Shown here: in pieces, positions 19,955 through 52,170 of the stretch
How the letters are laid out: every line of letters begins with the position of its first letter
Position numbering within the stretch: position 1 is the first letter of the stretch
NCBI GenBank assembly: GCA_022702935.2
Contig: JAKIML020000098.1
Location: 62,001 to 126,000 of the forward strand
Direction: 5' to 3'
Origin: Bacillota bacterium
GTDB taxonomy: Bacteria; Bacillota; Clostridia; DSM-8532
Length of the DNA stretch: 64,000 nucleotides
The notes under the pieces: generated by a model
What the model was told of the DNA's origin: nothing
The model's database searches: none
Seen by the model: the letters and a program-made list of their open reading frames with translations, nothing else
Translations under genes and position numbers: made by a program

Positions 19955-20118
19955 GTTCATCCGTTCTGTCCTTTTGCCTGAGAGATTTGGCGTATTTACG
20001 CCTTGCCCCTTCGGCCTCCGCTTTACACGGATGTCTCCAGAACGCCGTCTGCCGACAGTCCTCTTTACCTGAGAGTATTGCTCCTTCGGCCGGGGGATGG
20101 CCCCGTCTCCTGTCGGTT
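19955..20118 (-). ncRNA. Tandem glycine riboswitch
   Basis: Two glycine aptamers in series on the minus strand. Aptamer 1 (about 20118-20050) has ACAGGAGACGGGG, then GCCGAAGGAGCAA and ACTCTCAGGTAAAGAGGAC. Aptamer 2 (about 20047-19955) has CTGGAGAC, GGCCGAAGGGGCAAGG and ATCTCTCAGGCAAAAGGACA. These are the conserved cores of the gcvT-type riboswitch. A terminator follows. It controls the downstream symporter. In other Firmicutes such riboswitches either raise glycine-cleavage genes or lower uptake genes; the sense here is not decided by the sequence alone. Confidence 0.95.
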
Positions 20119-47819: not shown

Positions 47820-47905
47820 AAGGGGGGGAATTCTCGTAAGTCTACGACAGGCCATGGGGTTCAAATCCTCTTGCTGTCCACGGCTTGAGATGCCCCCCTT
47901 TTAAT
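47820..47905 (+). ncRNA. Structured element downstream of glgP, T-arm-like hairpin inside a terminator-like stem
   Basis: AAGGGGGG (47820-47827) pairs with CCCCCCTT (47893-47900), and TTAATTT follows, so it looks like a terminator. However, 65 bases lie inside the stem and fold into TCGTA-AGTC-TACGA and a larger arm closed by CAG/CTG containing GGGG-TTCAAAT-CCTC, whose 7-base loop matches a tRNA T-loop. No matching acceptor 5' half exists, so it is not a tRNA. Could be an elaborate terminator, a tRNA remnant, or an unassigned RNA. Confidence 0.45.
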
Positions 47906-48008: not shown

Positions 48009-48036
48009 TTGACACCCTGAGCCAGTGTGCTATAAT
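48009..48036 (+). promoter_or_regulatory. Promoter of DacF-like gene
   Basis: TTGACA at 48009-48014 and TATAAT at 48031-48036, 16-base spacer. Both hexamers are perfect, so the gene should be strongly expressed. Confidence 0.85.
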
Positions 48037-48099
48037 ACGAATAAGCTCCCCTCCATGGATGGGGCTGTGTCTTAATTTTCCATCAGGGAAGTATGAACA

Positions 48100-49383
48100 A
48101 TGGTGAATGGTTTCGGTACATTTAAAAAAAGGCGTCGTTATATGGCTTTGCTGACGCTTCTTTTTATGATGGTTGCCATGTTTGGGGCTATGCCCCAGTC
48201 TTTTGCTGCCAACGAAAATGACAAGCTGCAAACCGAGGCCGTTTCAGCCATTCTTTTTGATGCCAAGAGGGGTCAGGTCATCTATTCCAAGACCTCCGAC
48301 GAGCCCTCCAACTCATCCCTGGCCAATCGTGTCATGGCCGCTCTGATTGTTCTTGAAAAGGCTGATACCGAAGCTCTGGTCACCGCCAGCAAGGATGCGG
48401 CCAATGTGGAAGGCGCCTCCTTAAAGCTGTCAGTGGGTGAGAAATATGCAGTGAAAAACCTTCTCAATGCCCTGTTGCTGACTGGCTCCAAGGATGCCGC
48501 CATTGCGCTGGCTGAGTATGTGGGCGGAAGCGAAGATGGGTTTGTCAAGCTCATGAACAGCAAGGCCCACGAACTGGGAATGAACAAAACACGTTTTGTC
48601 AATTGCACCGGTGATTTTGATGAGAGACAGGTAACCACCATCCAGGACATCCAGATACTTTTCAGATATGCCCTGGCTAAAAGTGATTTCAACAAGTTCT
48701 TTGGGGCCCAGGCCAAGCCCTGGTACGACAGCACCAAGACCCTGCTTTTGACCAATACCAACAATATGTTCTGGAACTACAACGATACCGACGGCGGCAT
48801 TACCACCAGTGTGGACAAGGAGCTGCAAAGCATTGCCACCACCGTTACCCGAAATAACATGCGCCTGGTCTGCATCCTTCTGGATGTGCCCACCAAGAAC
48901 ATGTATGCCGACTCCATCGCTCTTTTGAACTACGGGTTTGAGAATTACCTGTATAGTACCCTGGTTTATGCGGGAAGCAGCCAAAAGACAGTGACGGTGG
49001 AGGGACAGACCCTGAATCTGGTGCCTGCCCAGGATGTTCAGTATATCCATCCAAAAGGCCAAAGCAATATCAAGAATATTGCCCTGAATGTGGATGAATC
49101 CAAGCTCAAGCCCCCCATCACCAAGAACACGGTCATTGGCATGCTCACCTATACCCTGGGCGACGATACGGTCATTAATGTGGAGCTGTATCCCGACAGG
49201 GAGATTCTGCCCCAAAAGACCCAAAAACAATTGCTGCAGGAGAAGCTCAATGAGAACAAGGAACTGATATACGTCATCATCCTGTTGGTTGTCATTGAAA
49301 TTATCATGGCGCTCATTAAGCTGGGAGGCTTTATCAAAAAGCAGCTTATCAAGGCCCAGGTCAGAAGACTCCGCAGACGTTAA
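48100..49383 (+). CDS. Inactive DacF/PBP5-like protein (S11 peptidase pseudoenzyme)
   Basis: 427 residues. Signal peptide (residues 10-37, cleavage after SFA), S11 D-Ala-D-Ala carboxypeptidase domain, then a C-terminal membrane helix (VIILLVVIEIIMALI) and a basic tail. The fold markers are intact (AILFDAKRGQVIY, MNSKAHELGMNKTRFVN, LLNYGFENYLY), but the three catalytic motifs are gone: SxxK reads SLAN at 73-76, SxN reads GSK at 129-131, and KTG reads TTS near 235-237. It therefore should not cut peptidoglycan. The reading frame is intact with a strong promoter and terminator, so it is a conserved-looking pseudoenzyme and not a decayed gene. It may bind muropeptides or regulate another protein. 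Confidence 0.85.
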   Translation: MVNGFGTFKKRRRYMALLTLLFMMVAMFGAMPQSFAANENDKLQTEAVSAILFDAKRGQVIYSKTSDEPSNSSLANRVMAALIVLEKADTEALVTASKDAANVEGASLKLSVGEKYAVKNLLNALLLTGSKDAAIALAEYVGGSEDGFVKLMNSKAHELGMNKTRFVNCTGDFDERQVTTIQDIQILFRYALAKSDFNKFFGAQAKPWYDSTKTLLLTNTNNMFWNYNDTDGGITTSVDKELQSIATTVTRNNMRLVCILLDVPTKNMYADSIALLNYGFENYLYSTLVYAGSSQKTVTVEGQTLNLVPAQDVQYIHPKGQSNIKNIALNVDESKLKPPITKNTVIGMLTYTLGDDTVINVELYPDREILPQKTQKQLLQEKLNENKELIYVIILLVVIEIIMALIKLGGFIKKQLIKAQVRRLRRR

Positions 49384-49404: not shown

Positions 49405-49438
49405 AAAGCGCTGTCACGGCAAATGACAGCGCTTTTTT
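49405..49438 (+). terminator. Terminator of DacF-like gene
   Basis: AAAGCGCTGTCA-CGGCAAA-TGACAGCGCTTT with a T-run; it may also serve prfB on the opposite strand. Confidence 0.9.
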
Positions 49439-50910: not shown

Positions 50911-50958
50911 AGACAGGACGATTGCTCCCTGAACATAAAAAGGATGACAGCATGTATT

Positions 50959-51714
50959 ATGGAACAGGAAAAGATTCTGGAAATCGCCGTTAAAGCCGGG
51001 ACCATTCTTTTACGCTTTGGCGCTGAGACCTATCGTGTGGAGGATACCATAAACCGCATCTGCAAGAGCTATGGTCTTGCCTGCGAGGCATTTGCCCTGC
51101 CCACGGGTGTGTTTGTCAGTGTTGAAGGGCAGGAAGGTGTTTCCACCATATGCAAAAGGATCCCCGCACGAACCGTGGATTTGGAGAAAATCGCGCGTCT
51201 TAACGACCTATCCCGGCGAATTGAGAAAAATAAGCCCGAGTACCATACGATCATGGCGGAGCTGGAAGCCATCAGCCACTGTCCCACCTATCCCAGGCTG
51301 GCGTTGATTCTAAGCTATGCCTTCACCGCCTTTGTCTATGCCCTGTTGTTTGGAGGCAATCTGCGGGACGCAGGCTCCGCGCTGGTAGTGGGAGTTCTCT
51401 TAAGCTTTGTCCGCATTATCTTTTCCAAAGAGATTACGTTTCCTTTTATTGAATACTTCATCGGGGGTTTTATTTCGGGGCTCATAAGCTCCCTGGCCGC
51501 CTCCCTCATCCCCCAGACCAATGCCTATGTGGTCATTATCGGGGCTCTCACAAACATGGTGCCGGGTGTGGCTCTGACCAACGGGATTCGGGATCTGCTT
51601 CACGGGGACAGTGTCAGCGGCCTGACCAAGCTGGGCGAGGCCCTGATGGTGGTGGCTGTTATCGCGGCAGGCACGGGTATTGGATTGGCTCTTTGGTTTT
51701 CGGGAGGAAGTTAA
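50959..51714 (+). CDS. Threonine/serine exporter, large ThrE-type half (DUF1212)
   Basis: 251 residues from ATG 50959; an ATG five codons earlier is directly abutted by AAAAAGG, so the start is uncertain, but family members begin here (MEQEKILEIAVKAGTILLRF). Residues 1-110 are a cytosolic region with GAETYRVEDTINRICKSYGL and ALPTGVFVSV; the rest has five membrane helices ending GALTNMVPGVALTNGIRDLL. It works with the next gene as a split ThrE amino-acid exporter. Confidence 0.9.
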   Translation: MEQEKILEIAVKAGTILLRFGAETYRVEDTINRICKSYGLACEAFALPTGVFVSVEGQEGVSTICKRIPARTVDLEKIARLNDLSRRIEKNKPEYHTIMAELEAISHCPTYPRLALILSYAFTAFVYALLFGGNLRDAGSALVVGVLLSFVRIIFSKEITFPFIEYFIGGFISGLISSLAASLIPQTNAYVVIIGALTNMVPGVALTNGIRDLLHGDSVSGLTKLGEALMVVAVIAAGTGIGLALWFSGGS

Positions 51715-52170
51715 ATGATTATTGATTTTATCAAGTATTTTATTCTGGCCTTTATCGGAAGTGTAGCTCCGGCCATTGTCATCAATATCGAAAGACGGGT
51801 TCTTATCTGGGCAGGCTTAGGCGGGGCCCTGGGCTTTTGCATAGCCCTTTCCTTCAACCCCGCTTCCCTCTCCTTCAGTATTCCCCAGATATTCTGCGGA
51901 ACCGTGGTCGTTGGAATCTATAGCGAGATTATGGCCAAGGTTCATAAAACACCTTCCACAGTCTTTCTGATTCCCGGCATTTTCCCGCTGGTCCCAGGCA
52001 TTGCCGCCTATCAGACCATGCAGAGCCTGGTGGAGAACAACACCCAGCAGGCTGCCGCCTATGCCCTGAACACCATCTTCAAGGCCTTTACCATTGCCTT
52101 TGGCATTATGATTGTCACCGCCCTGTTCCGCTTTTTCAGAAAGGCATTGAAGCATCGCTTTTCCCAATAA
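51715..52170 (+). CDS. Threonine/serine exporter, small ThrE-type half (DUF3815)
   Basis: 151 residues, five membrane helices. The start is fused to the preceding stop (TAAATG) with GGAGG inside the upstream gene. GIYSEIMAKVHKTPSTVFLI and PGIFPLVPGIAAYQTMQSLV are family motifs. Together with the previous gene it corresponds to one full-length ThrE, so both are needed for export of threonine or serine. Confidence 0.92.
   Translation: MIIDFIKYFILAFIGSVAPAIVINIERRVLIWAGLGGALGFCIALSFNPASLSFSIPQIFCGTVVVGIYSEIMAKVHKTPSTVFLIPGIFPLVPGIAAYQTMQSLVENNTQQAAAYALNTIFKAFTIAFGIMIVTALFRFFRKALKHRFSQ

Follow-up and report, generated by a model that had tools for sequence, protein, structure and literature searches.

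Automatic annotation labels proteins of the peptidase S11 family as D-Ala-D-Ala carboxypeptidases, and they are counted among the targets of penicillin. The open reading frame at 48100-49383 (+) of the 64,000-nucleotide stretch of clostridial DNA analysed here (the window) encodes a member of this family in which an earlier note, made from the single sequence, had seen all three catalytic motifs replaced. It thus raises the question of whether the activity has truly been lost, whether the gene is nevertheless maintained and, if so, for what function.

The frame was shown to be real and to encode a full-length S11/PBP5 relative of 427 amino acids. Its S11 domain is followed by a PBP5 C-terminal domain, and both homology and fold (Pfam, AlphaFold model, Foldseek) placed the protein within the S11/PBP5 family. 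The whole S11 fold was kept in the AlphaFold model (mean pLDDT 92), and the top relative in the PDB was DacB of Bacillus subtilis (3mfd; phmmer 2.2e-37; Foldseek 5.0e-27, TM-score 0.84 by target length), with the DacA-YxkC complex (PDB 9a4z) also among the Foldseek matches. The two domain matches and the intact modelled fold bear out the statement of the earlier note that the S11 fold markers are kept. The features of the gene product are as follows.

48100..49383, + strand: coding sequence of an S11/PBP5-like membrane protein, predicted to be non-catalytic (open reading frame, Pfam, alignment, model, Foldseek)
48100..48207, + strand: N-terminal hydrophobic export signal, residues 1-36 (model helix 8-29; hydrophobic N-terminus in 75/81 orthologues)
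48220..48891, + strand: Peptidase S11 domain, residues 41-264 (PF00768; E 2.8e-38, 132 bits against a cut-off of 27.6)
48319..48330, + strand: SxxK position, reading LANR, with Leu74 for Ser and Arg77 for Lys (DacB and multiple alignments)
48484..48492, + strand: SxN position, reading GSK, residues 129-131 (DacB and multiple alignments)
48799..48807, + strand: KTG position, reading ITT, I234-T235-T236 (DacB and multiple alignments)
48961..49206, + strand: PBP5 C-terminal domain, residues 288-369 (PF07943; 1.6e-10, 41 bits against a cut-off of 21.2)
49264..49326, + strand: C-terminal transmembrane helix, about residues 389-409, then a basic tail (model helix 387-426; hydropathy)
49297..49299, + strand: Glu400 at the centre of the transmembrane helix (in 80/81 orthologues)

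The register of the motifs was fixed by a local alignment against DacB 3mfd, which was gapless over the SxxK and KTG stretches, together with multiple alignments. The catalytic Ser was found to correspond to Leu74 and the general-base Lys to Arg77, and none of the three motifs of an active D-Ala-D-Ala carboxypeptidase was present. The claim that all three are replaced therefore holds, and GSK was the correct reading of SxN; the readings SLAN for SxxK and TTS for KTG, in contrast, had been taken one residue early and one residue off, respectively, the correct ones being LANR and ITT. Across 12 species of the genus, Leu74, Arg77, Gly129 and Ser130 were invariant, the SxN position read GSP in the other members, and the position of the KTG lysine was among the most variable. 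An active site restored at shifted positions was rejected, since the motif alignment was gapless and neither Ser73 nor the residue preceding it was conserved within the genus, whereas the four residues above were invariant; no conserved Ser, Cys or Thr was found at or beside the nucleophile position in the genus. Because the nucleophile, the general base and the SxN and KTG contacts are gone, the 427-residue protein is predicted from its sequence to be unable to acylate on D-Ala-D-Ala or penicillin. The genome that holds the window carries four S11 genes, and since SxxK, SxN and KTG are all intact in the remaining three, the D-Ala-D-Ala reaction is covered elsewhere in the cell.

The protein was shown to have orthologues well beyond its genus. 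Each genus genome of at least 90% completeness held one orthologue (535-645 bits, the window's own copy scoring 924), with the next-best S11 protein in any genus genome at 140 bits or below, and 28 of the 32 genomes of the family held one at 439 bits or more, the next S11 protein scoring 178 bits. A wider profile recovered orthologues in 40 of 54 genomes of the order of genome G315 (514-627 bits, with a gap down to 290) and further, more diverged ones in the order of G178; beyond the family and these two orders, one more genome of the class, G043 (family f13), also bears an orthologue. Among 300 sampled genomes of the phylum, nothing comparable was found outside the class; the matches there reached at most 344 bits, nearly all stopped before the membrane helix, and they were taken as ordinary S11 proteins. 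When a maximum-likelihood tree was computed with the motif columns removed, the orthologues formed one clade with SH-aLRT support of 99, inside which members of family f48 with intact motifs were nested.

Within this clade, the active site has been lost to very different degrees. Among the 81 aligned orthologues, of which two were gapped at the nucleophile, the catalytic Ser was missing in 67 of the 79 readable rows and kept in 12, and all three motifs were kept in only six (L081, L083, L084, L085, L129 and L143), all of family f48. The residues in its place were Leu, Ala, Ile, Val, Thr, Cys and Gln. Leu was found in the window's genus and in genus g7, Ala in g2, g4 and g6, and Ile in g5; the position was occupied by Ala in f57, f80 and f84, Ile in f13, Ile or Val in f23, Thr or Val in f91, Cys in two f48 species, and Leu, Ile or Gln in the order of G178. 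Plain parsimony on the tree gave five changes between Ser and other residues, or nine losses if Ser was never regained; a single early loss followed by later one-base regains from Ala to Ser is also possible, the tree being a quick one with open forks at this point. The six f48 members with all three motifs show that part of the clade still uses, or at least tolerates, catalysis. As separate observations, the proteins at L080:1477-2721 and L130:1486-2733 are natural Cys variants of a penicillin-binding protein, in which Cys replaces the catalytic Ser (CANK) while SxN and KTG are retained; in those at L158-L168, from the order of G178, no catalytic motif survives, and several have an insertion before the KTG strand.

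The C-terminal membrane segment was conserved far more strictly. The earlier note had a C-terminal anchor kept, and so it is, although as a true transmembrane helix with a basic tail rather than the amphipathic helix of PBP5 type. The helix was present in 81/81 orthologues (mean hydropathy of the best 19-mer at least 1.98) and followed by a basic tail in 78/81; Leu396 was conserved in all 81, and a Glu lay at position 9-14 of the best 19-residue hydrophobic segment in 80/81. Glu400 was missing from S11 relatives outside the clade, including four that do possess a C-terminal membrane helix; none of the 33 outgroup S11 proteins had an equivalent, only four of them having residues there at all (Val, Ile, Ser and Ile). 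The clade is further marked by Gln59, Tyr116, Gln177, Phe224-Trp225 and Gly233, the last few of which are weaker in the deepest branch; position 177 was His in 33/33 outgroup rows and Gln in the clade. The fixation of a charged residue in the membrane core across orders, in proteins that were free to lose their active site, argues for a selected function exerted through the membrane helix. However, a buried Glu can also serve self-association. The clade-wide loss of the active site and the practically invariant Glu lie beyond what the reading of one sequence could show.

The signals for expression of the gene were identified as follows.

48009..48036, + strand: promoter TTGACA-16 nt-TATAAT with TG before the -10 element (12/12 consensus)
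48085..48091, + strand: ribosome binding site AGGGAAG (sequence; conserved among relatives)
49405..49435, + strand: intrinsic terminator, which also serves the convergent prfB (sequence)

Both the perfect promoter and the terminator of the earlier note were thus located. A promoter of the same type, matching the consensus at 12/12 or 11/12 positions, was found at varying distances upstream of most orthologues in the genus, and it was the most clearly conserved intergenic block and the only clear one besides the ribosome binding site, which is conserved as AGGGAAGTATGA in L001 and L006 and as AGGGAAGAATGA in L002. By its sequence, the promoter reads as a vegetative-type (sigma-A) one and not as expected for a forespore gene. 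An Rfam match to NsiR8 beside it was dismissed as chance (17.5 bits against a cut-off of 61). In the window, the coding sequence sits between glgP and prfB. At 17 of the 42 loci compared, the window included, glgP (glucan phosphorylase) lies directly upstream in the same direction, these loci coming from families f1, f57, f80 and f89; other neighbours were dapB (16), prfB (11) and a beta-lactamase-like gene (9), and in most of the window's own family prfB follows downstream in convergent orientation. Gene context supports orthology more than function, and naming a partner from it was rejected, as glgP, prfB, dapB and the beta-lactamase-like gene vary and none is universal. The beta-lactamase-like gene near the S11 gene in nine loci encodes a membrane protein of PF13354, whose copies at L101, L122, L175 and L194 have SxxK and SDN and, by pattern search, no KTG. 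Between glgP and the coding sequence, 47820-47905 forms a stable hairpin (folding z-score -2.9) holding a stretch like the 3' half of a tRNA (GGGGTTCAAATCCTC ... CTGTCCA); ARAGORN called no tRNA there, and the stretch was not seen in the aligned relatives of the genus. Elsewhere in the window, a glycine riboswitch aptamer was found at 19956-20050 (-, 69 bits), and two adjoining membrane-protein genes at 50944-52170 resemble, by eye, the halves of a ThrE-type exporter.

Would such a gene simply be a decaying copy, a former carboxypeptidase gene drifting since its function was lost? The loss of all three motifs, further along in some lineages than in others, is what such a history would leave. 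However, by the Nei-Gojobori method, pairs of orthologues without Ser gave dN/dS of 0.05-0.13 where synonymous sites were unsaturated, and pairs including a Ser-bearing member gave 0.09-0.18. Identity across the genus was 60-69% for the dead orthologue against 67-73% (long matches) for the active paralogue L009, so the dead protein is only slightly less constrained. The frames are full-length in dozens of species, the promoter, the ribosome site and Glu400 are conserved, and the loss is common to several orders. The pseudogene reading, already contradicted by purifying selection, the spread of orthologues and the conserved promoter, was accordingly rejected as barely credible. Orthologues with the same losses, sought as the earlier note had proposed, were instead found in several orders under purifying selection, and its impression that the gene is maintained is upheld by them together with the conserved promoter and the intact fold.

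Three functional alternatives were then weighed. Were the dead pocket a sensor that binds stem peptides uncut and signals through the membrane helix, orthologues changed only at the nucleophile would be expected, and those of f57, f80 and f84 have indeed exchanged Ser for Ala while keeping the Lys and SxN and, in some, KTG, the pattern of a binder without turnover. In the window's genus, on the other hand, the residues that hold the substrate, namely the KTG Lys and the SxN Ser and Asn, have disappeared, which makes stem-peptide sensing there unlikely; the SxxK Lys has become Arg, few positions vary as much as that of the KTG lysine, and the short, basic cytosolic tail carries no signalling domain. 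The suggestion of the earlier note that the protein might sense peptidoglycan is thus doubtful for the genus and conceivable where only Ser has changed, and we regard a ligand-binding sensor as an unlikely explanation overall. It is more improbable still that the protein remains an enzyme with another nucleophile or another reaction: the Cys-bearing L080 and L130, with SxN and KTG kept, and the six intact members speak for this, whereas in the window's genus Leu74 is invariant and offers no conserved Ser, Cys or Thr at or beside it. A sporulation-specific, DacF-like factor for cortex peptidoglycan likewise appears very unlikely. In Bacillus, sporulation involves the S11 protein DacF, and the upstream neighbours in f23 resemble, by eye, germination-receptor genes; against this, the gene lies in the window between glgP and prfB with no spore gene adjoining and neither a forespore promoter nor a sporulation operon, and the sigma-A-type promoter, which most of the genus shares in perfect or nearly perfect form, leaves the sporulation link drawn by the earlier note unsupported.

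The protein is probably best explained as a maintained S11 pseudoenzyme that acts as a non-catalytic scaffold or regulator of a partner through its membrane helix and its clade-specific surface. The fold, the loss of the motifs, the orthology, purifying selection, the conservation of the helix and Glu and the vegetative-type promoter were all established by computation, while the absence of catalysis and the docking and regulation of a partner are what we infer from them. The pseudoenzyme would be exported, its intact S11 and PBP5_C body sitting on the membrane's outer face, where the true C-terminal transmembrane helix holds it; the helix, with its central Glu, and the family-specific surface might dock either an enzyme of the cell wall or some membrane-bound component of the machinery that builds it, which would be scaffolded or regulated in parallel with the control of amidases by degenerate LytM proteins. 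The view of a secreted, membrane-anchored and non-catalytic PBP5 relative, perhaps a scaffold or sensor, accordingly gains support from the shared losses, selection, promoter and fold. More tentatively, and a little short of an even chance, the clade may be an undescribed, widespread clostridial branch of PBP5-like proteins in which the buried-Glu helix and not the active site is essential: with catalysis lost up to nine times and the helix and Glu fixed, even the intact members might be mainly non-catalytic partners of a membrane wall machine. An orthologous branch across several clostridial orders is thus mostly without a nucleophile despite its automatic annotation. With intact, Cys, Ala-only and erased sites, this one clade provides a direct test bed for a non-catalytic role of low-mass penicillin-binding proteins, and the buried Glu is a concrete residue to mutate and a route to the partner.

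Compared with known systems, the protein has the two-domain fold and the export signal in common with the S11 carboxypeptidases (DacB 3mfd, DacA, DacF, and PBP5 and PBP6 of E. coli), but it differs from them in having no nucleophile, general base, SxN or KTG and in possessing a true transmembrane anchor, a buried Glu and a His-to-Gln change at position 177. A literature search on S11/PBP pseudoenzymes in clostridia returned nothing relevant, which is no proof of absence. A precedent for regulation in peptidoglycan biology is given by the degenerate LytM (M23) proteins EnvC, NlpD and ActS, which have a hydrolase fold, have lost the catalytic residues and act as regulators by activating amidases (PMC8360153). 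The logic proposed here is the same, catalysis lost and the protein kept by selection, but the fold and family are unrelated, and the partners of the LytM regulators are known whereas none is named for our protein. SpoIIQ is a LytM-like protein whose catalytic site has degenerated in Bacillus but survives in some clostridia. Like the present clade, it forms a single orthologous group that includes both active and dead proteins, and it is anchored in the membrane and works by protein contacts; it differs in its fold, its specificity for sporulation and its known partner SpoIIIAH. Pseudoenzymes and the S11 fold are thus already known kinds, and what seems new is how broad the clade is, that its nucleophile was lost repeatedly and that it has a Glu within the membrane.
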